The position numbers and the translations under genes are program-made. A stretch of 64,000 nt of DNA from Desulfobulbaceae bacterium (GTDB taxonomy: Bacteria > Desulfobacterota > Desulfobulbia > Desulfobulbales > Desulfobulbaceae). Numbering within the stretch: the stretch's first letter is position 1; the number at the start of each line of letters is the position of its first letter. This document shows positions 7,923-26,100 of this stretch, piece after piece. Where the stretch lies: contig JAFLKR010000003.1 in NCBI GenBank assembly GCA_019163135.1, positions 17,901 through 81,900 of the forward strand. The letters are read 5' to 3'. The notes beneath the pieces are model-generated. The model did not search any database. It had not been told where the DNA came from and worked only from the letters and a program-made list of their open reading frames with translations.

Positions 7923-10775
7923 ATGAGCGTGCTGTCGCAGACCTGCCTTGGGGCACGGTCTTTACTTCATCAATCCCCATCTTCAGCCGACCGGAGCACT
8001 GCAGAGGAAAGCAGAAATGGACCCAGGAAAATCGGTCTGCAACGGGAAAAGCTTCATTCGAGAGCAAAATCTGGGGGCAGCCTTGCGAACGATCAAAAAA
8101 AAGCAGAGCTTCCTTTCGATAAGGCGACGAGATTTTTTCTGATGAAAACACCGCATGAACGAACCAAGGGATCGCCTCGTGAGAATCCTGCTTCCCGATC
8201 GCTGAGAATCAGGCTGCTCATCATCGCCGCCCTGACCTTGCTGGCGGTGGTGATTATTGCCTTCGTTGGTGATCAGATCACCCTGATGCTGCACCGGAAG
8301 CATCAACTACCGGTCACCGACAACCTGGCGGTGGAAATCAATACGTTCATTGCCCGGTATTATGCCCATTCCGTGCAGGGCTTGGCGACTTCAGGGGAGA
8401 TTGTCGAGGTCTGCACCGGTCGAAATCGCGTCGATAATGACTCCCTGCTCAGCGTGTTGAATACCGCCCGGGGGGCGCTGGACGTCAGTTTTGTCTTTGT
8501 CATGAATACCGCCGGCACCGTCATCGGCAGTTCGACTTCGCCGGAAGAAACGAGTCTCACCGGTCATCAATACCCCTTCCGTCCTTATTTTATCCAAGCT
8601 GTCGCTGGTTCGTCCGCTCTCTATCCCGCCGTCGGAGTCACTACTAAACGCAAAGGGTTCTATTTCAGCGCCCCGGTCTACGCTGCAGATAACCGCACAC
8701 CGGTGGGCGTGGTGGTGATCAAGACCAAAAGCGAGTCGATCGATACCCTTTTTACCGCGTTGCGGGGTAAACTGGAGGCCCTCCTGCTCTCCCCGGACGG
8801 GGTGGTCTTTGCCTCCACCCATGAGGATTGGAACTTCCGGACCGCCTGGCCGCTTTCGCCGAATCGTTTGGCGGAGGTCAAAGCCAGCAAGCAGTTCGGT
8901 GATTATAAGCTGCAACCTTTGCATTTCTCCTTACAGGAGGCCACCGCGCATCATAACGGCATCCGTCATACCGTTGTCTCGCATCCGCTGGAGATCGAAG
9001 GCTGGCGGATCGTCACCCTCAAATCGGTGCCCTTTCCCTGGGCAGAGGTGCTGTTGCTCGGCTGCATTGTGGTTTCCATCGGTATCCTCTCCGGTGTGGT
9101 CGTCCGACATGGATATAAAGAACAACAACTGACCGGACAGGTGCTGGCCGGCCAGGAGGTCAGTAACCAGGTTAAAGCCGCGCATCGGGCATCGGTCCGT
9201 GAGTTGGAAACCATCTTCAGTGCCAGCCTGGTCGGCATTATCCTGGTTCGGGATGGCCGGGTGGTCAATGCCAACCGGCGGATGACCGAGATGTTCGGGT
9301 ATAGCCGCAAGGAATTCCTGGAGGGGGATATTCGGCAGTTGTTCACCGGTAGACGCGCCTTTCGACGGTTTGTCCAGCGGCATTTGCATCAGTTGATTGA
9401 AAGCGATGTCGAGCAGGTGGAATATCAGCTTAAGCGAAAAAACGGCACGGTCCTTCCCTGCACCCTCAGCGGCAAGGCGATCGACCCCAAGAATCTGGCC
9501 AAGGGAACCGTGTGGGTCGTCGAGGATATTTCTCGGAGGAAGGCGGCCGAAAAAGAGTTGGAACTGGCCCGTGAGGCAGCGGAGGCCGCCAGTATCGCCA
9601 AGGGAGAATTTCTCGCCAACATGAGCCATGAGATTCGCACGCCCATGAACGGCATCATCGGCCTGGCCAATATCATGCTTCAGGAAGCCATGCCGGATGC
9701 CCAGCGGGAACGGCTGGAACTGATTCGGCGCTCGGCCATCCGGCTGATGACCATCATTAACGATATTCTCGATTTTTCCAAACTTGAGGCCGGGCGCTAT
9801 GAACTGCATCCGCAGCCCTTTTCCCTGCGGGGGGCGATGAAGGAAATTATTCGACCAATGGAACCGACGGTACAGGGAAAGAATCTGCAATTCAGCCTGA
9901 CTGTGGATGCAGCGGTTCCCGATGTGATGGTGGCGGATCAGACCAAGCTCATGCAGGTGCTCACCAACCTGATTGACAACAGCCTGAAATTTACCCGTAA
10001 GGGGCAGATTACCGTTCGGGTCAGTCTTGAGGAAAGCACTATGGCAGCGGAGCAGTCCTTGCTGTTTGAAGTCGCCGATACCGGCATCGGCATTACGCAG
10101 TCCTATCAGGCCAAGGTCTTTGAATCGTTTACGCAGGCCGATTCCTCGCATGCGCGCCAGTTTGGCGGTACCGGCTTAGGCCTGTCGATCTCCAAGGGGC
10201 TGGTGGAGCTCATGGGCGGTCGAATCTGGTTCGACAGTGAGCTTGAGCGGGGCTCCTGCTTTTTTTTCACACTTCCCTTTGTCGCACCGGAAAACGGTCT
10301 TGCACCGACACCCGATGGGTGGGTGCCGCATCTTCAGGAAAATGGTCCGGGCCCCCAGGGGCACGGCCTGCGGATTCTGGTGGCCGAGGACGAATACATC
10401 AACAGCATTCTGATCCGCACCCTGCTGCAGCAGGCAGGATATCACGTCACCATGGTAAAGAATGGCCGGGAGGCTTTGGATGCCTGGCGGGGCGGAGTGT
10501 TCGATTGTATTTTGTTGGATATTCAAATGCCGGAAATGGATGGCTATGAGGTGGTGGCCCGTATTCGGGAGGCCGAAAAAAAAGGTGAACATATTTTGGT
10601 GATCGCTATGACCGCTCATGCCATGAACAGTGACCGGCGCAAATGTCTGGCCGCCGGCATGGATGATTATATTGCTAAGCCGATTGACGGCGCCACTGTG
10701 CTGCATCTTTTGCAGCAGCATCTTTCCGGGCGCCGGGCCGCTGTGGTCGTGGCCGAAGAAATGGAGACCTCATGA
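7923..10775 (+). CDS. Hybrid sensor histidine kinase (Cache-like sensor, PAS, HisKA, HATPase, REC)
   Basis: [24 protein letters not shown] (H box), [24 protein letters not shown], receiver [24 protein letters not shown] at 7911; alternative start at 8142. Confidence 0.92.
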
Positions 10776-12472
10776 AACGGTTGGCCCGCCTGCTGTTTTT
10801 TTTGACGGTCCTCGGCCTGCTCGGTTTCCTGTTGACCATTAATGTCAAACCGGCGCCCGAAGCCTTTGATCTTCTGCCGACCGAGACCATTGCCCTGGTG
10901 GAATGGGAGAATCTTGCCCGTTCCTGGGGGACATGGCAGCGCAACGCCATTGGCCGGAAATTTAATGATCCGAATTTGCCGAAGCTTCTTAAGCAACTGG
11001 GCGTTGACGAAGCGCAAATCGTCGAATTCAAAGCATTGACCACCTTCCTGGAGCGTTTTCCCCAAGCGCCTTTTTTCAGTAAAATTTTTTCCACAAAAGT
11101 CGTGGTGGCTCTGCTGCCTGCACTTGATAACCAGACTTTCACCGCCGCATCCCTGCTCAAACATCTGGTGCTGATTGTTCCCCAGGGGATGGGTTTTCCG
11201 CCTGCAGAGCAACTGGAAGGATTCTTTGGACCGGTGCAATCCACAAGCACCACACCCTACCAGGGGGTTTCTCTAGTGACCCTTACCTTCCAATCCGGCA
11301 GGACTGTAACCTATTGTCGTTTTCACGGGCAGTTGGTCTGTTCCCTCGATGCCTATCCGTTGCGACGCTGTATTGATCAGTCCCTCGATATGATGGTGCT
11401 GGCCCGGACCGGGCTGCAGGCCAATCAAGCCTTTCAAAGCCTGAAAAGTCGAGCGGGCGGTTCAACCCCATTTTTTCTCTACGCCGATACGAGCGCATTG
11501 TTGCGAAAGTTGCCGGTGCTGGCCATGGAACCGACCTCGGAAATCGGGCTGGTTCCCCATCATTTTGCCCTCTTTGATCAGGCAGATACCGGACATGACC
11601 GCCTGACGATCATCGCCCAGGTCCCCAGGGAGCAGTTGGCTGCTTTCACCACCAACTATCAACTGGCTCCGCCTGCCGAGGATCCGGTTGGCCAGCGGTT
11701 CCCCCCCGACACCCAGCTACACCTCTGGACTAACTGGTTCAATTTGAAAACCTTGTGGGATTTCGGTTTGCAAATGAAAGACCAGGAAGCTGGGGCCTTG
11801 CTGTATCTTCTCATTCAGCGGGTCATCGAAGGGTCCGGTAAAACCAGTAATGAGTTTTTTGATGTCTTCGGCACCCAATTCGGAGTATTCATTACCGAAC
11901 AGCAGGTTGCGCAGCAGCCAAACCGGTTGATGTCCTGCCTGTACCTTGAGGTTCGCGATCAACAGGAAGTTGAGACCATGCTGAAGCGGTTGCTTCGCGG
12001 CCTTCAGGTGATCACCGTCATGACGGGCGGATTGGAGATCGGCTCGGTGAATATGGCTGGCGGTCTGTTGCAACCGGCGTACGCCCTCAAAGATCGGCAC
12101 CTGATTATTGCCGACAGTGCGGCCTTGATTGAGCAGGTCCAGCATCAAGAAGGGGTCGATCCGGTAACCGACCCTAACAATCTTGGGGCCGCAAAGGATC
12201 GGGCCGGCAACTTGTTTTTATTTGCCAGAAGCAAGAACGTGGCGGAACGACTGATCGCCATGCTGACTGTGCTGCTCAAGGAGATGGCGGATCAGGAAAA
12301 AGTCCTGTCACCTAAGACCAGGCTGTTGATCGAACAGATTTTGTTTCCGGTGCTCAAGAGTCTGCAGGCTGTGGAAACCTGCGCGTTGCGTGGTTCTGTT
12401 GCCGGGGACGAAATGACTGTGGAAATGGATTTTGCCACCGGCCGGGAAGGGTTTCGAATCTTCCAGCCGTAA
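10772..12472 (+). CDS. Conserved hypothetical membrane-anchored protein (DUF3352-like)
   Basis: N-terminal TM helix then FDLLPTETIALVEWENLARSW; ATGA overlap with upstream kinase. Confidence 0.6.
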   Translation: MKRLARLLFFLTVLGLLGFLLTINVKPAPEAFDLLPTETIALVEWENLARSWGTWQRNAIGRKFNDPNLPKLLKQLGVDEAQIVEFKALTTFLERFPQAPFFSKIFSTKVVVALLPALDNQTFTAASLLKHLVLIVPQGMGFPPAEQLEGFFGPVQSTSTTPYQGVSLVTLTFQSGRTVTYCRFHGQLVCSLDAYPLRRCIDQSLDMMVLARTGLQANQAFQSLKSRAGGSTPFFLYADTSALLRKLPVLAMEPTSEIGLVPHHFALFDQADTGHDRLTIIAQVPREQLAAFTTNYQLAPPAEDPVGQRFPPDTQLHLWTNWFNLKTLWDFGLQMKDQEAGALLYLLIQRVIEGSGKTSNEFFDVFGTQFGVFITEQQVAQQPNRLMSCLYLEVRDQQEVETMLKRLLRGLQVITVMTGGLEIGSVNMAGGLLQPAYALKDRHLIIADSAALIEQVQHQEGVDPVTDPNNLGAAKDRAGNLFLFARSKNVAERLIAMLTVLLKEMADQEKVLSPKTRLLIEQILFPVLKSLQAVETCALRGSVAGDEMTVEMDFATGREGFRIFQP

Positions 12473-12502
12473 TTTCAATAAGGGCGGGAACGTCTTCCGC
12501 CT

Positions 12503-12895
12503 ATGGATATGCTCAGTATGGAACAACTGGTCGCGGAACTTAAAAAGAATCTTCCTTTCAAAGAGACCACCGTGGTGGGCGATATTGTGATCATCGCCGC
12601 CAAGCAGCCGCAGATGCTGGTCTATGCCAAGGTCGGTGATATTGTTCGGGATGAAAGCAGGAAAGAGGAATGGTGGCAGGTGACGCTGCATCTGCTCGGC
12701 ATTCCCCTGCAAACGGTGGTTTGGACCTTGCGTACCGCCCAGTTCACCGGTCAGGAGATCTTCACCATGGGAGGCGAAGGACGGTTCATCAAGGCGATTC
12801 GTTTTGAGGAATCGGCCTCGCCAGCCCAGCCTGCCATCCGTGAGTTTCCCGGCAAAGGGAACGTACGGAAATCAGCTTTACGCATCGTTAAATGA
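12503..12895 (+). CDS. Hypothetical protein
   Basis: 130-aa ORF co-directional with and overlapping the next gene by ATGA. Confidence 0.6.
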   Translation: MDMLSMEQLVAELKKNLPFKETTVVGDIVIIAAKQPQMLVYAKVGDIVRDESRKEEWWQVTLHLLGIPLQTVVWTLRTAQFTGQEIFTMGGEGRFIKAIRFEESASPAQPAIREFPGKGNVRKSALRIVK

Positions 12896-13158
12896 ACTGG
12901 CAGCACTGCAGCTTACTGGTAGGGAATGAACGGGGCGTTCACGGCCGGGTGGCGACCCGTCTGGCTGAAATCGCCGCTGAGTACGGGGTGTTGCTGCAGA
13001 TCAGCAGGGGTGATGAAACCGTTGATTGCTCCTCCATCCTCGATGTTTTGGCCCTGGCCTTGGTGCAGGGGACCGAAATCAGGCTGCACGCAGGCGGAGA
13101 TAAGGCGGAGCAGGCCCTGCGGGCGGCGCAGGCAGTGGTAACAGGGCAGGACGATTGA
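12892..13158 (+). CDS. HPr family phosphocarrier protein
   Basis: [17 protein letters not shown] (His site, cf. GLHARPA) and [23 protein letters not shown] (Ser46 region); directly upstream of Enzyme I. Confidence 0.88.
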
Positions 13159-13162
13159 TAAG

Positions 13163-14962
13163 ATGATTATGAGAAAAATGAACGGCGCTCAGGCCGAAAC
13201 ATCGCGAACGCTGCAAGGCATCGGCGTTTCTCCCGGCATTGTGGTCGCCAAGGTCATGGTCCTTAAACGCCCGACCTGGAGAGCAGGTCGGTATCATCTG
13301 CCGCCTGAACATATCGAACAGGAGGTGGGTCGGTTTTCCCAAGCCATTAATGCCGCCGGCCAGGAATTGCTTCGTCTGCGGGAAAAGGTGGCCGACGATC
13401 TGGCTGATGCTCTGTCGATCATCGACTCCCATCTGCTTATGTTGAAAGATCGGATGATTATCGAGCGCACTACGGCCATCATCCGCCAGAATAATGTTAA
13501 TGCGGAGTGGGCCCTGGCCCAGGCCCTGTGCGATATCAAGGAGCGATTCGACCGGATAGACGACCCCTATATCAAGGAACGGTACGCCGATATCAAGCAT
13601 GTGGCCGACCGGGTCTTCGGTCTGCTTGCCGGCCGGGAAAGCGATCCGCTGGATCTGGCCACCGGTCCCACCATTGTGGTAGCCAACGATTTCTCCCCGG
13701 AAGACACCATGCGGATGCAGGCCGGCAACGTCCTCGGGTTTCTTACCGAAAAAGGGGGGATGAACTCGCATACGGCTATAGTCGCCCGATCGCTTGCTAT
13801 TCCGGCGGTGGTTGGCCTGGAACATGTGACTGGCATCCTGGCCACCGGTGATTTGATTATCATGGATGGCGGTTCGGGGCTGGTCATTCTCCGCCCTGAT
13901 CCTGAAGAAATCATCCGATATCAGGCTGATGAGCGGCACAGTCGGGCCAGGGCCGATGAATTGGACCGCTATATTTATCTGGCCTCGGAAACCCTGGATG
14001 GGTACACCCTCCGGTTGAGCGCCAATATCGAAATGGTTGAGGAGTTGCCGACCGTGCTCCGCTACGGCTCTGAAGGGATCGGGCTGTTCCGCAGTGAGTT
14101 CGATTATTTCCAGGGGCGCCGGCCACCGACAGAGGAACAGTTGCTGTCCACCTATCGCCAGTTGCTGGAGACTATGTCGCCGCACCCGGTGACCGTACGC
14201 ACCCTCGATGTCGGCGGCGACAAATTTCTCAACAGCTTTCCCGGCAACAAGGCTTGGTTTGATCAGGAACGCAATCCGGCCCTTGGCCTGCGTTCCATCC
14301 GGTTTTCCCTGTATGAAAAGGAGCTGTTCAGGATGCAGCTGCGGGCTTTGCTTCGAGCCTCGGTTCATGGCCGCCTGCGGATCCTGCTGCCGCTGGTCTC
14401 CGCTCTGGGTGAAGTGCGCCAGGCCAAGGCGATAATCAGGGAACTCATGGCTGATCTGGAGGCCGCAGAACAACCCTATGCCGTGGATGTGGAAATCGGC
14501 ATGATGGTCGAGGTGCCGAGTGCCGTGGTTATGGCCGATGTCTTTGCGGCGGAGGTCGATTTTTTTGCGATTGGCACCAACGACCTGATTCAGTACTCCT
14601 TGGCCATCGATCGCGGCAACCAGTATGTGGCCCATCTGTATGAACCCTTTCATCCGGCGGTGCTGCGAATGATCAAGCAGACTGTGGAGGCCGGCCATGC
14701 CCATAATATTCCGGTGTCGCTTTGCGGGGAGATGGCCGGGGATGTGCTCTGCGTGCCCGTGCTGATGGGCCTGGGGCTTGATGAACTGTCGATGCGGCCC
14801 GCGGTTATCCCCAAGGTCAAGCGACTGCTCCGCCATTCCAGCACCAGGCAGTTGCGAAATCTGGGCGAACAGGTGCTGCGCTGCGCCGACAGTAACGATG
14901 TCCGGGCCTATCTGGCGACGACCCTCCCTCAATACTACCCCAAAGAATTCCAGCAGCCGTGA
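13163..14962 (+). CDS. ptsI: PTS Enzyme I, phosphoenolpyruvate-protein phosphotransferase
   Basis: [39 protein letters not shown] (phospho-His), [23 protein letters not shown] (active Cys). Confidence 0.96.
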
Positions 14963-15972
14963 ACGAACGTCAAATTATAGAATATATCGCAGCACAGGCC
15001 GATCCGACTGATGGGCAACTGCTCAAGGGCATCGGGGACGATTGCGCCGTGATCAGAAAGGATGGCAACCGGGTCTGGCTGCTGACCATGGATACCCTGA
15101 TTGAATCGGTTCATTTCAATCGAGACTTTCATCCCCCAGAGAAACTGGGGCGCAAGGCGGTCTCGGTCAATGTCAGCGATATCGGGGCGATGGGCGGCAA
15201 GCCGGTCTTTGTCCTCTTGTCGGCGGGCATGCCCCACGGCTTTGACGAGGCCTGGTTCCGGGCTTTTGTCAGTGGGCTGACCGAGGCCTGCCGCGAATAC
15301 GGCTGCTTCATCATCGGCGGCGATACGGTTGCCAGCCCTGGCGGGCTCACCTTCACCCTGACGGTTATCGGCGAGGCTGAAGCCGATCAGGTGGTCTATC
15401 GCAGCGGTGCCCGGCCCGATGATGCCATTTGGGTCAGTGGTCCCCTGGGATTGGCCGCCGCCGGGCTGGAACTGCTGAATGCCGGCATCGAGCCCGACAA
15501 TCAGGCCTTTGATCTTCTGCGGGAAAAGCACCTCAATCCGCAGGCCAGGGTGTCGCTGGGGCAGCAGCTTGCCGCCAGCGGTCGGGTGCATGCCATGATG
15601 GATCTGTCCGACGGTCTGGCCACCGATCTGGCCCATCTCTGCAAGCAGTCCGGAGTGGGAGCACGGCTTTTTGCCAGGGACCTTCCTGGGGTTGCCATGC
15701 TTGCCGACGCTGCGCGACTCACCGGTTGCGATCCGGAACGCTGGGCCCTCAGCGGCGGTGAGGACTTTGAACTCCTGTTCACCGCCAACCCCGACGAGAG
15801 CTTCCATCTTGGCGGAATTGCCGAGGCCTGCGGGCTATCGATCTTTCCGGTTGGCGTCATCGTTGTCGGTGTCGGGGTTACCCTGATCCGGTCGGCAGCG
15901 GATGGTACCAACCATGAAATTGCGATCGCCTATCAGGGTTTTGATCATTTTCGTAACGGGAACGGAGGCTAA
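14959..15972 (+). CDS. thiL: Thiamine-monophosphate kinase
   Basis: [63 protein letters not shown]. Confidence 0.94.
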
Positions 15973-15973
15973 G

Positions 15974-18538
15974 ATGCTGGTCGGCGCCGTATTCAAACAT
16001 TGGTCGCTTCGATTATTTGCCCCTGATCGGATCTTACAGCAGACCTACGAGGCCTTTAAGATCCTGCTCAGCTTTGATAGCAGAAGTCATGAGCTGATGG
16101 CGGAATTTGAAGAGCTTTATCATGAGGGCAGGAGGGAAGATATTGCCCGCATCCGCAGCCGCTACCGACAGCTGGCCGAGGCGGTCGCCGGCATGGTCTC
16201 TGCCTTGGAACAGATGTCCCCTGCTCAGGCGGGCGGTCTGCACGACTATTTTAATAAATACGATTTCTACGTCCGGCTCCAGCTGGCCCCGCCCGAACAG
16301 TTCCTTATCCCGCCTTTTGTCGTTGGGCACGATGTCAGCACCGAGTGCGCCCTGATCGGCCACAAGAGTTCCAATTTACTGCTTCTGCAGCAAGCCGGCA
16401 TGGTGCGGGTTCCCGCCGGATTCACCATCACGGCTACTACCTTCGCCTTCCTGGTTGACCATAATCGCCTGCGTCCGGCCATCGACCTGCTGCTGGCCTC
16501 CATTGATCCCGAATCAAATACAAGCCTGGAAACGATTTCCCAGGCGCTGATGACTCTGGTGCGGCGGATGGCGATTCCCGAACAGATTGCCCAAGCCGTC
16601 CTGATGCAATACGATCGTATCGCCGACCTGCATGCAGACAGCGCCCCACGGGTGGCAGTGCGTTCATCGGCGCTCCACGAGGATAGCCTGCATAGTTTCG
16701 CCGGTCAGTACCACTCGGTTCTGGGCGTTGGCCGGGATGAATTGCTGGCGGCCTATCTCGAGGTGCTGGCTTCCAAATATACGGCACAGGCTTTGCTTTA
16801 CCGGATTTACGCCGGCCTCAGCGATGAGGAGGCCGCGATGGCGGTGCTCGTCCTGGAGATGATCGACGCTGTGGCCAGCGGAGTGGTCTACACCCGCGAC
16901 CCGGCTGCAGCTGGCAGCGGCGATGTCCTGCTGATCCATAGCATCCATGGGCTTGGGTTGCCGCTGGTGGGTGGCGAGACCGTGCCGGATGTCTTCGTTT
17001 TTCCAGCACAAAGTGCAACCCCCTCGCAGGTTGCAGCTGGATCGCAACACCACCAATTGGTGGTGCGCCAGGGCCAGTTGCAGGAGTTGCCGCTTACCGC
17101 GGGCGAGGCGCCATCGCTGTCGCTTGATCAGGCACAGGCCGTGCGTCTGGCGGCGATGGCCAGGGAGCTTGAGACCTTTTTCGGCGGGCCGCAGGATATC
17201 GAATGGGCCCTGGATCGTGATCAGCAACTCGCTATCCTGCAATCGCGTCCCCTCCAGATCGATGCCTCGCCACTGCCTGTGTCTGCGGTTGCGCTTCCGA
17301 CAGGCAAGCCGCTGTTGACCGGGGCCAAACGGGCGGCCGGCGGCATCGGTTGCGGCGTCGTCCACCACCTTGACCCGGCGGACACCGCCACTGTGCCACC
17401 GGGCGCGGTGCTGGTGACTCGGCATATTCCTCCCTCTCTGGTTCGTTTTATCGGCAGGCTGGAAGCGGTGATTTGCGAACAAGGATCGGTCACCGGTCAT
17501 TTTGCCACGGTCTGCCGGGAATTCGGGGTAGCCCTGCTGGTTGATGCGGCCGATGCGCTGGTCCTGTTGCCCGCCGGCCTGGAGGTCACGGTCGACGGAG
17601 GCAACGGGGTTGTGTATCCCGGCCGGGTGGCGGCGCTGTTGGCCCGTAAAACAGCGGCCAACACCACGGTGACCTCCGCTTTTTCGCGAAAACTCCGATC
17701 GTTGCTGGATTATATCACCCCGTTGAATCTGGTCGACCCCACGGCGGCCACCTTTCGGCCCCAGTCCTGCCGATCGCTCCACGATATCATTCGTTATGCC
17801 CATGAAAAGGCGGTGCAGACCATGTTTGGTCTCGGCGATATCGCCTCAGGCAGCTCGTCCCGGTGCAGAAAACTGGCGACCCCCCTGCCGCTCGATATCT
17901 ACCTGCTGGACGTGGGCGGAGCTTTTACGGATGGGGGCGAAGGTGGTGCGGCCATCAACCTGGAGCACCTCAAGGCAGCACCTTTTCTGGCGGTCTGGCA
18001 GGGGCTCAGCCATCCGGAGATCGACTGGCAGACGCACCTCAGTTTTGACTGGAAAGGCTTTGGCGATATGGCGCTGTCGGGCGGTGTCGCCAGTGGCGGT
18101 TCTAAGGATTACGCTTCCTATGCGATCATCAGCCCTGATTATCTCAATCTGACCATGCGGTTTGGTTTTCATTTCACCTTGGTCGACTGTCTCTGCGGTG
18201 CGGAGGCCAGGGCCAATTACTGCCAGGTCCGTTTCGCGGGCGGCGGCGGCGATTACCAGGGCCGATCGACGAGGATTATCTTGCTTGATCGCATCTTCCG
18301 CCGCCTGGGGTTTGAGGTCAATATCCGGGGGGATCTGCTTGATGCCCGGGTCAGCGGATATCCGGCCGACCCCCTCGGTGTGCTGCTTGCCGAAGTCGGC
18401 CGCCTGTTGGGCATGACCAAGTTGCTCGACATGGTGCTGCAGGCTGAGGATATCGACCACTATACCGAACAATTTTTCAAAGGGGCCGGCAGGTTTGCCA
18501 GCCATGCCGATCCTCCTGCCGACTCTGCCGATCAATAA
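15974..18538 (+). CDS. PEP synthase/PPDK-like ATP-grasp phosphotransferase with swivelling His domain and uncharacterised C-terminal domain
   Basis: ALIGHKSSNLLLLQQAGMVRVPAGFTIT (PPDK_N start), DIEWALDRDQQLAILQSRPLQI, GSVTGHFATVCREFGVALLVDAAD (His domain); no PEP-binding TIM-barrel motif read in the C-terminus. SD CGGAGG at 15963, ATG 15974. Confidence 0.85.
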   Translation: MLVGAVFKHWSLRLFAPDRILQQTYEAFKILLSFDSRSHELMAEFEELYHEGRREDIARIRSRYRQLAEAVAGMVSALEQMSPAQAGGLHDYFNKYDFYVRLQLAPPEQFLIPPFVVGHDVSTECALIGHKSSNLLLLQQAGMVRVPAGFTITATTFAFLVDHNRLRPAIDLLLASIDPESNTSLETISQALMTLVRRMAIPEQIAQAVLMQYDRIADLHADSAPRVAVRSSALHEDSLHSFAGQYHSVLGVGRDELLAAYLEVLASKYTAQALLYRIYAGLSDEEAAMAVLVLEMIDAVASGVVYTRDPAAAGSGDVLLIHSIHGLGLPLVGGETVPDVFVFPAQSATPSQVAAGSQHHQLVVRQGQLQELPLTAGEAPSLSLDQAQAVRLAAMARELETFFGGPQDIEWALDRDQQLAILQSRPLQIDASPLPVSAVALPTGKPLLTGAKRAAGGIGCGVVHHLDPADTATVPPGAVLVTRHIPPSLVRFIGRLEAVICEQGSVTGHFATVCREFGVALLVDAADALVLLPAGLEVTVDGGNGVVYPGRVAALLARKTAANTTVTSAFSRKLRSLLDYITPLNLVDPTAATFRPQSCRSLHDIIRYAHEKAVQTMFGLGDIASGSSSRCRKLATPLPLDIYLLDVGGAFTDGGEGGAAINLEHLKAAPFLAVWQGLSHPEIDWQTHLSFDWKGFGDMALSGGVASGGSKDYASYAIISPDYLNLTMRFGFHFTLVDCLCGAEARANYCQVRFAGGGGDYQGRSTRIILLDRIFRRLGFEVNIRGDLLDARVSGYPADPLGVLLAEVGRLLGMTKLLDMVLQAEDIDHYTEQFFKGAGRFASHADPPADSADQ

Positions 18539-18541
18539 CCT

Positions 18542-19585
18542 ATGTACGAACTCAATTGGATTACCGAACACCTGGCCACCGGCCATGCCCCCATGTCCTA
18601 CGAGGAACTCGACAGTCTCCGGGAACAGGGGATAACCGCCATTGTTAATCTCTGCGGAGAGTTCTGCGATCTCCACCGGATCGAGGAGGGTTCGGGGTTT
18701 GAAGTCTATTACCTGCCGGTGGTCGATGAATGCGCCCCTGATCTGGCGGCCATGGAAACGGCCCTGGACTGGCTGGATGAGGCCGTCTACCTCAATAAAA
18801 AAGTATTGGTCCATTGTCGGCTCGGCCATGGCCGCACCGGTACCTTTATTGCCGCCTATCTGCTGCGCCGCGGTTTTGATTTCAAATTGGCGGAAAAAAC
18901 CATGAAGGGCCGGAACGCCAACCCCGCCACCTATGAGCAGCGCAGCTTCCTCAAAAAGTACGGCAAGCAGGTGGGGCCGCTCCAGGCCGCGCCGCCTAAA
19001 ATCGACAACCGTCCGGGCATGGACATAACCCCCCTGCTCCTTGCCTATCAACAACTGATTAACCGTTGTGATCAGCAGGCGGCGGGCAAGGCTGTGGATT
19101 TAGGTTGCGGCCATGGCGATAGTGCGTGCTGTTATCAGCCCTTTGAATTATTGCTGATTGAAAGCATGCATCTCAGCCAAGCCATTAATAAAACCCTGCG
19201 GCAGGAGCAGCGTCAGTTCGTGATTGAGCGGGCCTTTGCCCTGGCGAGTCGGTTGAAGGAATTGCACCATCAGCATCCGGGCCTAACGACCGAGGCCCTG
19301 GTGGCGGACTTTCCTGAAGAAAGGCTGACCTGTCCGCTGCTGGAATCCGGGGAATGCCTCGTGTTTGCCGATCGTCCGCCGCGTTGCCGGAATTGGGGCC
19401 GCTTGGTCAGCGAAGAACAATATCGCGAAATGGTGGAGGCCGTAGCCGAACTTTCGAAAGAGGCCTATCTGTCGCTGACCGGCAGATTAGCGCCCGTTGA
19501 GAACCTTCGATTTTCCTCGGCGGACACCATTTCCGGAAAATTCGTGCAGCTCTATTTCCAGGCAATGGTCTCGGAAAAAGGGTAA
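18542..19585 (+). CDS. Dual-specificity/tyrosine phosphatase fused to YkgJ-like cysteine-cluster domain
   Basis: VHCRLGHGRTGTFIAAYLLRRG (HCX5R P-loop); C-terminal DLGCGHGDSACC...LTCPLLESGECLVFADRPPRCRNWG. Confidence 0.82.
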   Translation: MYELNWITEHLATGHAPMSYEELDSLREQGITAIVNLCGEFCDLHRIEEGSGFEVYYLPVVDECAPDLAAMETALDWLDEAVYLNKKVLVHCRLGHGRTGTFIAAYLLRRGFDFKLAEKTMKGRNANPATYEQRSFLKKYGKQVGPLQAAPPKIDNRPGMDITPLLLAYQQLINRCDQQAAGKAVDLGCGHGDSACCYQPFELLLIESMHLSQAINKTLRQEQRQFVIERAFALASRLKELHHQHPGLTTEALVADFPEERLTCPLLESGECLVFADRPPRCRNWGRLVSEEQYREMVEAVAELSKEAYLSLTGRLAPVENLRFSSADTISGKFVQLYFQAMVSEKG

Positions 19586-19594
19586 AATCGGCGT

Positions 19595-21022
19595 ATGGGC
19601 GAAACCAAACAACAGAAGGTGCTGATCGTCGACGATGAGCGTGATATGCTCAATCTACTGGCCAAAGTGCTGGTGAAAAAGTGTGGTTACGCCGTGGAAA
19701 CGGCGGCTTGCGCTGAAGAAGCCCTGGAGATGATTCATACGGATTCCCCCGATGCGGTGCTCACCGATATCAAAATGCCGGGCATGGACGGCCTGCAATT
19801 TCTCCGGCAGATGACCGCCATCGACCCGGCCGTTACCACTATCCTGATGACCGGCCACGGGACCATTGAAATGGCGGTTCAGGCCCTCAAAGACGGGGCC
19901 TACGATTTCATCGAAAAGCCCTTTGATAACGAGCGCATCATCCGCACCGTCGGTCGGGCGATCGAACGCACCCGCCTCCTGCGCGAGAATGCGCAGTTGC
20001 ACCACCGATTATGCGATCAGGACCATCTCCATGGGTTCATCGGGCGGTCGCGGCGGTTGCTGCAGACGGTGGAACTGCTCGGGCGGGTCGCCCACAGCAA
20101 TGTCACCGTGCTCATTCGGGGCGAGTCCGGCACCGGCAAGGAACTGGCGGCCAAGGCCCTGCACGCCATGTCCAGTCGGGCGGATCGGCCCATGATCACG
20201 GTCAACTGCCCGGCTTTGCCGGAGCATATCCTGGAGAGCGAGTTGTTCGGCTACCACCGGGGGGCCTTTACCGGTGCCGATCGGGATAAGGCAGGGTTGT
20301 TTGTCGAGGCCGAAGGTTCGACCCTTCTCCTTGATGAGATCGCTGATATTCCGGTGGGGGTGCAGACCAAGTTGTTGCGGGTTCTTCAGGAAAAAGAAGT
20401 GCAGCCCCTGGGGCAGAACAAGACGTTAAAGGTCGATGTTCGGGTAGTGGCCTCCACCAACCAGGACCTTGAGGCCAAAATCAGACGGGGCGAGTTTCGC
20501 GAAGATCTGCTGTATCGGCTCAATGTGATGACTGTCACCATGCCGAGTTTGGCCTCGATGGCGGCCGATATTCCGCTGCTGGCTCAACATTTCCTTGAAC
20601 ACTACATCCGGGAGCACGGGCGCGGCAACCTGGAATTCAGTGCCGAGGCACTCCAGGCGCTGATGCTGCGGCCATGGCCGGGCAATGTCCGTGAATTGCA
20701 GAATGCAGTTAACCGGGCCGTCCTGCTTGCCCCCGGTGATTTGATTGGAGTGAGTGATTTGTGGGAGGAGCAGGGCGCTCTCGGATCGTTTTGCAGGGAA
20801 GAACAGCAGAAACAAGGGGACCTGCCGCCGTCAAGCGAGCGCTTGTCTTATCGTGAGGCTAAAAATGCCCTGCTTCGCAAGTTTAATGCCTCGTATCTTG
20901 CCGAGGCCCTGGAGGCTGCGGAGGGCAACGTCACCCTTGCCGCCCGCAGTTGCGACATGGAACGGCAAGCCTTTCAGCGCCTGCTGCGGCGCTATCATAT
21001 CGAATCAAGGAGTTTTCGATGA
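19595..21022 (+). CDS. Sigma-54-dependent response regulator (NtrC/AtoC family)
   Basis: [17 protein letters not shown]+ [30 protein letters not shown] (GAFTGA loop); C-terminal Fis-type HTH. Confidence 0.96.
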
Positions 21023-21417
21023 TGCAGATACCGGCAGACTATTCCCTGGCCCGCAACAAATCGTACTGTGATTATTGTCCCGGCTACTGCTGCTATCGGC
21101 TTCCCGGCGCCAGCCTGTTGCTCAGAAACGATGATATCAATCGTATGGCCCGGCACTTCGGCATCAGCGATGGTGAGGTCAGAATGCAGTTTCTGGAAAA
21201 TAAGAACACCTTCAAAACAAGAGAGGACGGCAGTTGTATTCTGCTCGCCAATGACCGTTTTTGCAAACGATGTACCATCCATGAGGCCAGGCCCCTGCAG
21301 TGCCGCGACTTCCCCTACGATAAACCCTGTCCGTACCTGGAGAATCCGGATCTATTGGCTATCCTCCAGCCTCGGGTTGAACAGAGTCTTTCGCTGGTCG
21401 CCGACAACGGCACCTAA
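21019..21417 (+). CDS. YkgJ family cysteine cluster protein
   Basis: YCDYCPGYCCYRLPG ... FCKRCTIHEARPLQCRDFPY; ATG at 21019 overlaps upstream stop. Confidence 0.88.
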   Translation: MMQIPADYSLARNKSYCDYCPGYCCYRLPGASLLLRNDDINRMARHFGISDGEVRMQFLENKNTFKTREDGSCILLANDRFCKRCTIHEARPLQCRDFPYDKPCPYLENPDLLAILQPRVEQSLSLVADNGT

Positions 21418-21505
21418 TTTTTTAAAACACCCGCTTAGGCCGCTTGCTCCCATCGGTGGTCCTGCTCTCCCAAGATCCTCCTCCTCGGTCAACATCGGGT
21501 CGGGT

Positions 21506-21539
21506 GCATCTTTTTTGTTTCTCCCGCATCTTTTTTGTT
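21506..21539. repeat. Tandem direct repeat GCATCTTTTTTGTT x2 (20-bp period)
   Basis: Identical 14-mers at 21506-21519 and 21526-21539, about 120-150 bp upstream of a predicted sigma-54 promoter. Confidence 0.8.
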
Positions 21540-21659
21540 GCACTTCAGGGCGTCAGGCATCAGTCTGTATCGGCAGGTCGGTAGTCTTGCATCTCCTAAT
21601 TATTTAATATTTTAAGGAAAAAATCGAATTTTATTTTGTGTGTATTTGCGTTGTACATC

Positions 21660-21675
21660 TGGCATTGAGCATGCA
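21660..21675 (+). promoter_or_regulatory. Predicted sigma-54 (-24/-12) promoter
   Basis: TGGCATTGAGCATGCA aligns with TGGCACGNNNNTTGCW with exact GG-N10-GC spacing. Confidence 0.6.
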
Positions 21676-21727
21676 TTACATCTAACGTTACAGAGATACT
21701 AACAGGAATACTCCTCGGAGCCGGTTG

Positions 21728-22207
21728 ATGACCAACAGGAAAATCAATAGTTCGCTCGTATTTTTATTGCTGCTCATGGCTGTGATAACGCCTGGAGAGG
21801 CCTTGGCGCTGCAGGTGCATGGCGAGCCCGAAGGATTGTATGTGCATCAGATGGCCCATCTCCATTATATTTTTGCAATTGGGTACTTTTTTTGGGATAT
21901 CAGGCGCTCCTCGTTTACCGGCCGTGGCTGGCGGTACCTTCAGTTGTTCTGTATCCTGATGACCTGCTGGAATATGATCGCCTTTGTTGGCCATCTCGCC
22001 GGGGTGTATTTAGACCCGCAAGCGCTGCTCCAAGCCGACCACTATTTTCAGACCCGGCTGCTCGGCCCGTTCACCCTTAATAAATATCTGTATTTTATTA
22101 CTAAACTTGACCATCTTATTTACGTGCCCGCCATGTTTTTTCTTTTTCTCGGCCTGCGGTCCTTTTATTTGTCAGTGGTCAAAACAACGGGCGAGGAGGG
22201 CAGATGA
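21728..22207 (+). CDS. Hypothetical multi-pass membrane protein
   Basis: ORF with several TM segments; ATGA overlap with downstream histidine kinase; in-frame ATG 21728. Confidence 0.65.
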   Translation: MTNRKINSSLVFLLLLMAVITPGEALALQVHGEPEGLYVHQMAHLHYIFAIGYFFWDIRRSSFTGRGWRYLQLFCILMTCWNMIAFVGHLAGVYLDPQALLQADHYFQTRLLGPFTLNKYLYFITKLDHLIYVPAMFFLFLGLRSFYLSVVKTTGEEGR

Positions 22208-23766
22208 ACAGTATTTCCATGCTGCCCACTGTTCTGGTCGACATTACCGGGTCCGCTGCCAACATGCTCTTTTCCTTCCTGGCCCTGTGGTATGCATTTA
22301 GGCTGACCCGGCTCAAACCGGATAATTTTCTCTGGGGTTATCTCTTTTATGTGACACTGGCGATTACCGCCTTTGCCATCTCAAGAGCCGTCGGTCATAT
22401 CGCCAAAGAATTTTTGTTTATCGTCGGGAGGGGGGATCTCTGGCGCGCAATTGCGCCGTATTCGGGTGGCATCAATACCCTGTGCATGATCTCGGTTTCG
22501 GCGGTAATGATTTTCTACCACAAGGGCGTGCAAGCTTATGAAGCCATTGAGCAGGAGGCGGCGAAGCTCAAACAATCCAAAATTCGCCTGACCCGCGCCG
22601 CCCGCGAGTTGAAAGAACTCAATCTCAACCTGGAGGACAAGGTCGAGGAACGAGCCGCAGAGTTGTCAAAATCGGAAAAGAAATTTCGCCATCTGTTCAC
22701 GGCTTCCAAAGACATGGTGTTCTTTACGGATAGCAACCAGGCCATTCTCGATATGAATGCCTCGGGTTCGGAAATGCTCGGCTATGCACTCCCCGAATCC
22801 ACGCGTCTCACCCTGCGCCATATTTTTCGCCACGAGGGTGATGTTGCAGTTTACGCCAAAATGCTGGAAAACGATGGGTATATCAGAGACTTAGAGTCGG
22901 AATTCAAGAAAAAAGATGGCTCCACCATTTATGTCCTGATTTCAGCTACCGCTCTTTATGACGAACAGGGACTGATGATCGGGTCCGAGGGGATAGCCAA
23001 GGATCTGACCCGGTTGAAAACCATGATGGAACAACTGGTTTCCAGCGAGAAAATGGCTACAGTCGGTCAGATGGCGGCGGGGATAGCCCATGAGATCAAC
23101 ACGCCTTTAGGTATTATCCTGGGCTATGCCCAACTGATGATGGATGATTTTGCCAAGGATTCTGAAACTTATCAGAACCTGGAGGTGATCGAACGCCAGA
23201 CCCAGGCCAGCCGGAAGATTGTCGCTGATCTGCTTAAATATTCACGGCAGTCCGGCAGTGCGCGGGAACCCATCAATCTCAACGAGATCATTAATGATGC
23301 GGTGGCGATTACCGAGCACAGTCTCAATCTTAACCATGTCAAGATTGGGCTGCAGTTGGCGGGAGACCTCCCGGCTCTGGTCGGCGACCCTGAAAAAATG
23401 CGGCAGGTGGTCGTCAATATGATTAATAACGCCTACCACGCCATGGAAGCCCAGGGCGGTGGTGAATTGATTCTTCGCACCCGCTACCCTGCCGGAGCGG
23501 ACAAGGTTATCGCCGAATTTCAGGACAGCGGGCATGGCATTCCGGAATCGATCAAGGCCCGGATTTTCGATCCTTTTTTTACCACCAAACCGGTGGGTAA
23601 GGGGACAGGGCTGGGGCTCTCCGTCTCCTATGGTATCATCCGGGAGCACGGTGGCACCATCGAGATTGAAAGTCCCGTTCAGGGCCTTGGGGGCATGACC
23701 ACGCCCGGGACCTTGTTTCGGCTGATTCTCCCGGTGGCCGTGGAGTCGGCGGCTATAAAAGAATAA
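22204..23766 (+). CDS. Membrane-bound PAS sensor histidine kinase
   Basis: N-terminal TM segments, [24 protein letters not shown] (H box), [18 protein letters not shown]. Confidence 0.93.
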
Positions 23767-23794
23767 TCGTTGGTATAACGTTTCAGGAGGAAAA

Positions 23795-24166
23795 ATGGCT
23801 GAAATACTCACCTTGGATGATGTCCTGGATGCCACAGTGCTGGTCGGCAAGATCCTGCGGAAAAAGGGGCATGTCGTCCATACTTTCACCGAAGAAGACG
23901 AGGCAGTGGCTTTTGCAAGGCAGCATCCGGTTGATTTGGCCATCCTCGACATCAAACTGAAAAAAATGAGCGGGATCGAAGTGCTGGCCATCCTGAAGGA
24001 GGACAACCCAGCCATGCGGGCCATCATGCTCACCGGGTATCCCACCGTGGAAACCGCCCGGGAAGCCATCAGCCTCGGGGCGGATGAGTACTGCGTCAAG
24101 CCGATTGACCGTTCCGAACTTGAGGAAAAGGTGGAAAAGGTTCTGGCAGCAAAACCCCGGCAGTAA
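23795..24166 (+). CDS. Single-domain response regulator
   Basis: VDLAILDIKLKKMSGIEVL, IMLTGYPTVETAREAISLGADEYCVKPI. Confidence 0.9.
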   Translation: MAEILTLDDVLDATVLVGKILRKKGHVVHTFTEEDEAVAFARQHPVDLAILDIKLKKMSGIEVLAILKEDNPAMRAIMLTGYPTVETAREAISLGADEYCVKPIDRSELEEKVEKVLAAKPRQ

Positions 24167-24230
24167 AGGGGGTTGAGTCCATTGTTCGTGCATGCCCAAT
24201 GCCATCGCCTAAGAGATAAAAGAGAGTATC

Positions 24231-25904
24231 GTGGATAATCCGCAGTCTCGTGAGCAGCAGTTTTTGGGGGTTTACCAGAAGGTGACCCGCCTGACGTCCA
24301 TGGTGCTCGATCATCAGGAAATCATGGAGACTGTCGTTCGCAGTCTGCCGGCGTTGTTGACCATTGATGCCTGCACCATCAGGCTGCTGGACCTCTCCAC
24401 CCGTTCTTTTGTCCTGGGGGCGGCCCATGGGGTCTCGCTGGAATATCTTTCGCGGGAAGTGATCGATACCGAAGCAACCATGGCCATGATCCAATCGGGA
24501 TTTCCGGTGTACAGCACCCACCTGGACCAGGATCCGTTCCTGCCGTTCCGGGAGGCCGCCAACCGTGAGGGGATCAAGAGCGTGCTGACCCTGCCGATCG
24601 TTTTTCAGAGCAAACTCATCGGGATCATGCGCTTGCTGACCCGAACCGAACGAAATTTTACCTCCGAAGAGATTTCGTTTGCCATGGCCTTGGCGGAACA
24701 GGTGGGCATTGCCATTGCCCATGGCCGGATGTTCAAAGAGATGGAAGCGCAACTTGATTTTCTCCGGGAAATACAGGGCCTTTCCACCCTGGTGAATTCA
24801 ACCCTTGATTTGGACCTTATTCTGCGGACCATGGTCGAGCGGGTGGCTATCACCATGGGGGCCAAGGGCTGCACCTTGCGACTGCTCAATCCGGCCACCA
24901 ACAAACTGGAACTGGCTGCGGCCTTCGGGGTTTCCGGCGCGTATCTGCAGCGGGGAACGGTCGAAAGTGAACGGAATATCCAGTTGGTGCTCACCGGAGA
25001 ACCGGTGGCCATATACGATATAAGTCATGATCAACGGGTTGATTACCGACAGCAGATGGCGGATGAGGGAATCGTCTCGCTGCTGGCAGTGCCGTTAAAG
25101 GTCAATGAAGAGATCATCGGCGTCATGCGGATTCTCGCCGATGTGCCCCGGGTGTTCACCGGCACGGAAGTGCAGTTTGCCGTAACCCTGGCCGAGGTTG
25201 GCGCAACCGCCATCCGCAATGCCAGGAATTACCAGAAAATCACGCTGCTGTTCGGGCAGATCGAAGAGCATGAACGCTTTCTTAACGACATCATCAACAG
25301 CCTGCAGCACCAGTTGCTGGTTTTTGATCGGAATCGGCGGGTGGTGCTTGCCAATCAGGTCTTTCTTGCCGCCATGGAAAAGGATGAGGCCGAGGTGCTG
25401 GGGATGGATTATGGCGATCTCTGCAGCGGTGCTGCCGGGAAAGCCTCTTGCCCGGTAGATCAGGTACTACAGGATAGGAAGATGATGCCGTTGGTCCAGG
25501 AATTCAGTTCAGGTGATCAGCAACGCTGGTTCGAACGGACCGCTTCGCCCCTGTATGATGCCGATGGTCGGGTCGAGTATGTGATCGAGATCATTCGCGA
25601 TATCACCAGCGAGCATCTGCTGGCCGAAGAAAAGGTGCAGAGCGGCAAGTTGCAGGGCATAGTGGAACTTGCCGGAACCGTAGCTCATGAAATCAACAGC
25701 CCGCTTTTTGCGGCCTTGGGCACTGCGCAGTTGCTTGCCGAAGAAAGCAAAACGACTGAAATGGTCGATGAACTTGAAATCATAATAAGAAATTTGAAAC
25801 AAATCAGTGCGTTGACCCAAAAGATGACCGCTATGACCGGCTTTACTGGCAGGGAGTATGTGGGTACGAGCACGATCTTGTCGTTTACGGACGAACACAG
25901 ATGA
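24231..25904 (+). CDS. GAF-GAF-PAS protein with C-terminal HisKA-like dimerisation domain but no HATPase domain
   Basis: Two GAF-like units, PAS, ELAGTVAHEINSPLFAALGTAQLL (H box), terminates shortly after. Confidence 0.8.
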   Translation: MDNPQSREQQFLGVYQKVTRLTSMVLDHQEIMETVVRSLPALLTIDACTIRLLDLSTRSFVLGAAHGVSLEYLSREVIDTEATMAMIQSGFPVYSTHLDQDPFLPFREAANREGIKSVLTLPIVFQSKLIGIMRLLTRTERNFTSEEISFAMALAEQVGIAIAHGRMFKEMEAQLDFLREIQGLSTLVNSTLDLDLILRTMVERVAITMGAKGCTLRLLNPATNKLELAAAFGVSGAYLQRGTVESERNIQLVLTGEPVAIYDISHDQRVDYRQQMADEGIVSLLAVPLKVNEEIIGVMRILADVPRVFTGTEVQFAVTLAEVGATAIRNARNYQKITLLFGQIEEHERFLNDIINSLQHQLLVFDRNRRVVLANQVFLAAMEKDEAEVLGMDYGDLCSGAAGKASCPVDQVLQDRKMMPLVQEFSSGDQQRWFERTASPLYDADGRVEYVIEIIRDITSEHLLAEEKVQSGKLQGIVELAGTVAHEINSPLFAALGTAQLLAEESKTTEMVDELEIIIRNLKQISALTQKMTAMTGFTGREYVGTSTILSFTDEHR

Positions 25905-26100
25905 TGTCCACGACCAGGATAAAGGAGGTGGACAAGCAAGGGTAAGGCATGCTGGCCTTGTTGGAATCTGACGAGGAAGGCACCGTCGGGTGTCCGGCTA
26001 AGGTCTGCTACAGCAGGTGCGTAAACGGTTTTTAAATGGTGCAGCCCGATTTTTTCAGCTTCGGGTGGTGCGGAATTAACGATAAAAAGGAGATAGGGGT

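Follow-up and report, generated by a model that had tools for sequence, protein, structure and literature searches.

A putative dikinase–phosphatase pair next to the HPr–Enzyme I genes of a Desulfobulbaceae bacterium: one gene run, two apparent modules

Genes for phosphoryl transfer are packed closely together in a 64,000-nucleotide stretch of a Desulfobulbaceae genome (contig JAFLKR010000003.1; hereafter, the window), raising the question of whether their products hand on phosphate in one relay. HPr, Enzyme I (EI), the thiamine-phosphate kinase ThiL, a PEP-synthase-like dikinase (PPDKL) and a Cys phosphatase (PTP) are encoded in a single tight same-strand run (12892-19585, + strand). A preliminary description of this DNA had read these five consecutive genes, with their short gaps and overlaps, as a single PEP-dependent relay in which the dikinase and the phosphatase act on a shared target, possibly feeding the adjacent sensor kinase and NtrC-type regulator.

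The open reading frames (ORFs) and curated models bear out the five genes, their positions and their close spacing, all on the + strand: HPr (12892..13158; PF00381, 62 bits; TIGR01003 above the cut-off), EI (13163..14962; TIGR01417, 557 bits, cut-off 342), ThiL (14959..15972; TIGR01379, 318 bits, cut-off 184), PPDKL (15974..18538; assigned by PF01326, PF00391, conservation and a structural model) and PTP (18542..19585; DSP/PTP models). HPr and EI are separated by 4 nt, EI and ThiL overlap by 4 nt, and the gap between PPDKL and PTP is 3 nt. The run is longer than five genes. On the 5' side, an ORF for a 130-aa protein of unassigned function (12503..12895, + strand) overlaps HPr by 4 nt and is kept directly upstream of HPr-EI in relatives, whereas on the 3' side, PTP is followed after 9 nt by the gene for an NtrC-type sigma-54 activator with a receiver domain (19595..21022, + strand), which in relatives comes after PTP or ThiL, and then by a YkgJ-like protein. 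The PPDKL reading frame is open from 15902, but translation more likely begins at the ATG at 15974, 1 nt past the ThiL stop, a start chosen by inspection because orthologs start near residue 25 and GGAGG precedes this ATG. Promoter-like sites were at least as numerous in shuffled sequences as in the real one, and sigma-54-like sites occurred at chance level only; terminator-like sites were modestly more frequent than in shuffles (24 vs 16.3, sd 4.1), at uninformative positions.

To compare gene order, we looked for PPDKL and EI in 56 related genomes and then read the neighborhoods in tables built on simple ORF calls; because the gene caller was simple, ThiL is visible only as an antisense ORF in some of the tables in which EI and PPDKL are linked. 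EI and PPDKL are contiguous in the genome of the window (G000) and in G003, G011, G012, G018, G023, G027 and G028, and the full five-gene order is seen in certain species only, from the genus of the window and two sister genera. Elsewhere, EI-ThiL stands without PPDKL-PTP beside it (G001, G004, G015, G024, G025, G029, G031 and G033), with PPDKL-PTP located at another place in six of these genomes (all except G029 and G031) and the NtrC gene directly following ThiL in three (G001, G004 and G015). Furthermore, PPDKL is kept but EI was not found in six genomes of the same genus (G005, G007, G010, G013, G016 and G022); several of these are drafts, and the six include G010, a single contig with 99% completeness, and G013, listed at 100%. 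Close relatives without EI retain ThiL-PPDKL-PTP, and on a contig of G007 (locus L004), the 130-aa ORF is followed directly by ThiL, with HPr-EI missing. In a sample of 395 genomes of the phylum, EI is near universal (365/395) and shows no association with PTP (36 of the 42 genomes with PTP vs 329 of the 353 without; p 0.11).

Because related genomes carry HPr-EI-ThiL and PPDKL-PTP apart, gene order shows the run to consist of what appear to be two separate modules side by side: module A (130-aa ORF-HPr-EI-ThiL) and module B (PPDKL-PTP). Upstream of module A, a 566-aa protein (10772-12472) with no Pfam or NCBIfam match at E <= 0.01 is conserved in many relatives. We reject a common PEP relay through the five genes on account of the separation of the modules and the loss of EI; the lack of an association between EI and PTP and the absence of a PEP domain from PPDKL (see below) also speak against it. 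Conservation of gene order, proposed as a check on the relay, thus fails for the five-gene unit and holds for a smaller one. Shared transcription of modules A and B could still couple the two in this lineage.

The components of module A appear intact: the GxHxR active-site motif of HPr, including the active His, and the GGxxSH and CGEMAGD motifs of EI are all conserved, and EI carries three PTS_I domains only, without the GAF domain of PtsP-type EI. The genome of the window encodes one HPr, one EI (at E <= 1e-30) and one EIIA-2 protein. No PTS permease genes are among the ORFs identified within positions 8000-26000 of the window, and neither EIIA-Man nor the HprK C-domain was found in the genome at E <= 0.001. 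Hence, of the two partners that had been suggested for a search elsewhere in the genome, EIIA and HprK, only the former turned up, as an EIIA-Ntr (PF00359, G000:C13) adjoining rpoN (sigma-54) and the gene for an LptB-like ABC protein. This is the usual setting of ptsN, which typically sits beside sigma-54 and an LptB-like ABC gene. Since the genome encodes EIIA-Ntr beside rpoN, HPr-EI fits, on a plain reading, a regulatory PTS-Ntr. The likeness to the known EI-HPr-EIIA-Ntr system thus extends to active His residues in EI and HPr and to the position of EIIA-Ntr, whereas the missing GAF domain and the linkage of HPr-EI to ThiL set the system described here apart. Cofitness links PtsI to a putative, unlinked EIIA in Desulfovibrio vulgaris, where the defects are seen on alternative nitrogen sources (PMC10102598).

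Turning to module B, PPDKL matches PF01326 (234 bits) and PF00391, and the PEP/pyruvate-binding domain (PF02896) is absent. The ATP-grasp residues are intact, as is His533 (numbering from 15902; codon at 17498..17500, + strand), the presumed phospho-accepting residue, which is invariant (56/56). The phospho-His domain (499-569) comes after the ATP-grasp, and the 300 aa beyond it gave no match to a Pfam family and no placement in a fold search; within this C-terminal domain, H627, D628, R631 and H634 are invariant. The predicted structure (pLDDT 86) comprises a helical N-terminal domain, for which only a sub-threshold model match was obtained, a dikinase-like region that resembles PEP synthase, rifampin phosphotransferase (RPH) and HpeI, and the C-terminal domain. 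Because the PEP-binding domain is missing, the phosphate donor of PPDKL, predicted from its domain content, should be ATP. A role as the PEP synthase of the cell was rejected given the absence of this domain and the presence of a separate full PEP synthase, with PF02896, in the genome.

The known roles of dikinases of the PEP synthase type lie in central metabolism, in the inactivation of antibiotics and in the degradation of phenol. PPDKL shares with PEP synthase and PPDK (PF01326-PF00391-PF02896) the ATP-grasp and the mobile phospho-His domain, with conserved catalytic residues, but differs in lacking the PEP domain and in having its own C-terminal domain and an extra helical N-terminal domain. 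RPH and the two-component dikinases HpeHI and PpsAB combine the same dikinase core with a non-pyruvate acceptor (PMC4844700, PMC12167813). However, the domain order in RPH is ATP-acceptor-His, in contrast to ATP-His-C-terminal domain in PPDKL, and the C-terminal domain of PPDKL shows no detectable relation to the RIF-binding domain. The genome of the window encodes a second PPDK_N protein with a C-terminal His domain, an RPH-like order, and no PEP domain (L252, G000:C149, 298-2466), and at another locus (L179, G000:C55), a PPDKL paralog and another PPDK_N fragment lie among several sensor kinase and receiver genes. Three PPDKL relatives of ~1060-1080 aa (L006, L007 and L108) have a lectin-like C-terminal stretch (PF06439 or PF21708), which is above the curated cut-off only in L108, the one with a PTP partner.

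By fold and sequence, PTP is a putative DSP-type Cys phosphatase. The HCxxGxGRTG loop is invariant at H91, C92, G95, G97, R98, T99 and G100 (catalytic Cys92 codon at 18815..18817, + strand), and the predicted structure (pLDDT 82.5) has the DSP phosphatase fold, with a Foldseek TMt of 0.85 to ShufPTP. Both fold and loop are shared with Tk-PTP, VHZ/DUSP23 and SsoPTP, from which PTP differs in its Cys-rich, YkgJ-like tail (a sub-threshold CxxCxxCC match) and in its near-constant PPDKL partner. A similar Cys pattern is found in the separate small YkgJ-type protein encoded 3' of the NtrC gene (21019-21417).

PTP is present in 42 of the 395 genomes of the phylum sample and, in most of these, adjoins PPDKL, the exceptions being G262, in which no PPDKL was seen, G096 and G131, in which the two genes are on opposite strands, and G236 and G396, in which a sensor histidine kinase (HK) and a receiver (RR) gene lie between them. 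In two genera of one family (G323 and G433), a single ORF (1259 and 1252 aa) encodes PPDKL and PTP together, and both motifs are intact. A tree of 151 sequences places every PTP-partnered PPDKL within one clade of 63 (support 0.999), which includes nine members without PTP; of three "fused" tips, one is a truncated duplicate locus of G323. The conserved pairing and the two gene fusions fit the earlier proposal that the dikinase and the Cys phosphatase may act on a shared target. The literature covered, titles and abstracts with few full papers beyond, contains no description of a dikinase–phosphatase pair, and the PPDKL-PTP pair has apparently not been described previously.

The window also encodes a PAS sensor HK (22204..23766, + strand) and a stand-alone RR (23795..24166, + strand) that, across the phylum, tends to be present in genomes with PPDKL-PTP. 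An RR homolog was found in 51 genomes, 38 of the 42 with PTP vs 13 of the 353 without (Fisher p 3e-37, ignoring shared ancestry). In 29 of these 38 genomes, no more than 10.5 kb separate it from PTP; in the other nine, it is distant or on another contig, and it is missing from four genomes with PTP. Apart from the order seen in the window, HK-RR-PPDKL-PTP is the commonest arrangement; unlike the direct upstream position in most distant relatives, the HK and RR of the window are 3-4 kb downstream of PTP. RR is a single domain without an output domain, and its acidic pair, Asp, Thr and Lys are kept and nearly invariant across 42 sequences. It thus resembles stand-alone CheY-like response regulators, which likewise have a single receiver domain with intact active-site residues, but is distinguished by its genomic tie to the dikinase–phosphatase pair. 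In the wider PPDKL family, a receiver is located within 1.5 kb in 22 of 47 cases vs 27% elsewhere in the same loci; this enrichment is modest, and therefore, we claim the receiver link for the PTP-partnered clade only. The preliminary description named the adjacent sensor kinase and NtrC-type regulator as possibly fed by the relay; a link to a nearby sensor kinase is supported, with the stand-alone receiver, rather than the NtrC-type protein, as the main connection.

We propose, with about an even chance of being right, that module A encodes a PTS-Ntr phosphorelay alongside the housekeeping ThiL, and module B, an antagonistic PPDKL-PTP pair under two-component control. In module A, phosphate would pass from PEP to EI, HPr and the EIIA-Ntr encoded beside rpoN. 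In module B, ATP would supply a phosphate that PPDKL passes through His533 onto a hydroxyl group of a target bound to the C-terminal domain of the dikinase, and PTP would remove this phosphate again. HK would set the balance between PPDKL and PTP through RR, which might bind PPDKL, perhaps at the helical N-terminal domain, or PTP.

Other assignments of the pair compete with this two-module proposal. PPDKL might be a small-molecule dikinase like RPH, HpeHI and phenylphosphate synthase, acting on a metabolite; PTP would then recycle or proofread the product, and the role of the two-component genes would be limited to the control of expression. The shared ATP-grasp and swiveling His domain, together with the small hydroxyl compounds phosphorylated by RPH and HpeHI-type relatives (PMC4844700, PMC12167813), count for such a role, but the domain order is unlike that of RPH, the neighborhoods read contain no constant catabolic gene, and the conserved RR lacks a DNA-binding domain, which makes this assignment unlikely. 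Still less probable is a bacterial analog of the plant glucan dikinase/phosphatase cycle, in which PPDKL would phosphorylate a glycan and PTP dephosphorylate it. Plants do have such an opposed pair, the PPDK-like GWD and the DSP SEX4, and the lectin-like stretch of some PPDKL relatives, including the PTP-partnered L108, is in line with this analogy. However, the proteins of the window have no glycan-binding domain, glycogen genes were not noticed as constant neighbors, and the domain order is unlike that of GWD.

The close linkage of HK and RR could alternatively place PPDKL inside the phosphorelay, where it would use ATP to phosphorylate RR or HK and PTP would be a passenger without a related role. 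We regard this as highly improbable: PTP is the most constant partner of PPDKL and is fused to it in two genera, and DSP enzymes act on O-phosphates rather than on receiver Asp-phosphate. At the bottom of the scale is the transfer of PEP phosphate by EI-HPr to PPDKL or to a target shared with PTP. The tight gene run in the window and several relatives is in its favor, but it is opposed by the six PPDKL-carrying genomes of the same genus in which EI was not found, the unlinked modules in other genomes and the absence of an EI-PTP association across the phylum.

To conclude, PTS genes adjoining other phosphate-handling genes need not be functional partners. The conserved, sometimes fused dikinase and DSP phosphatase, together with the stand-alone receiver, suggest reversible phosphorylation under two-component control. 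Somewhat more tentatively than the two-module proposal as a whole, we suggest that a lone receiver and its sensor kinase may control, by protein contact, an ATP-dependent dikinase and an opposing DSP phosphatase, which would be a new signaling output in bacteria of the sulfate-reducer type. These genomes encode many PPDKL-type proteins, and the identity of the target would assign a function to a large family.
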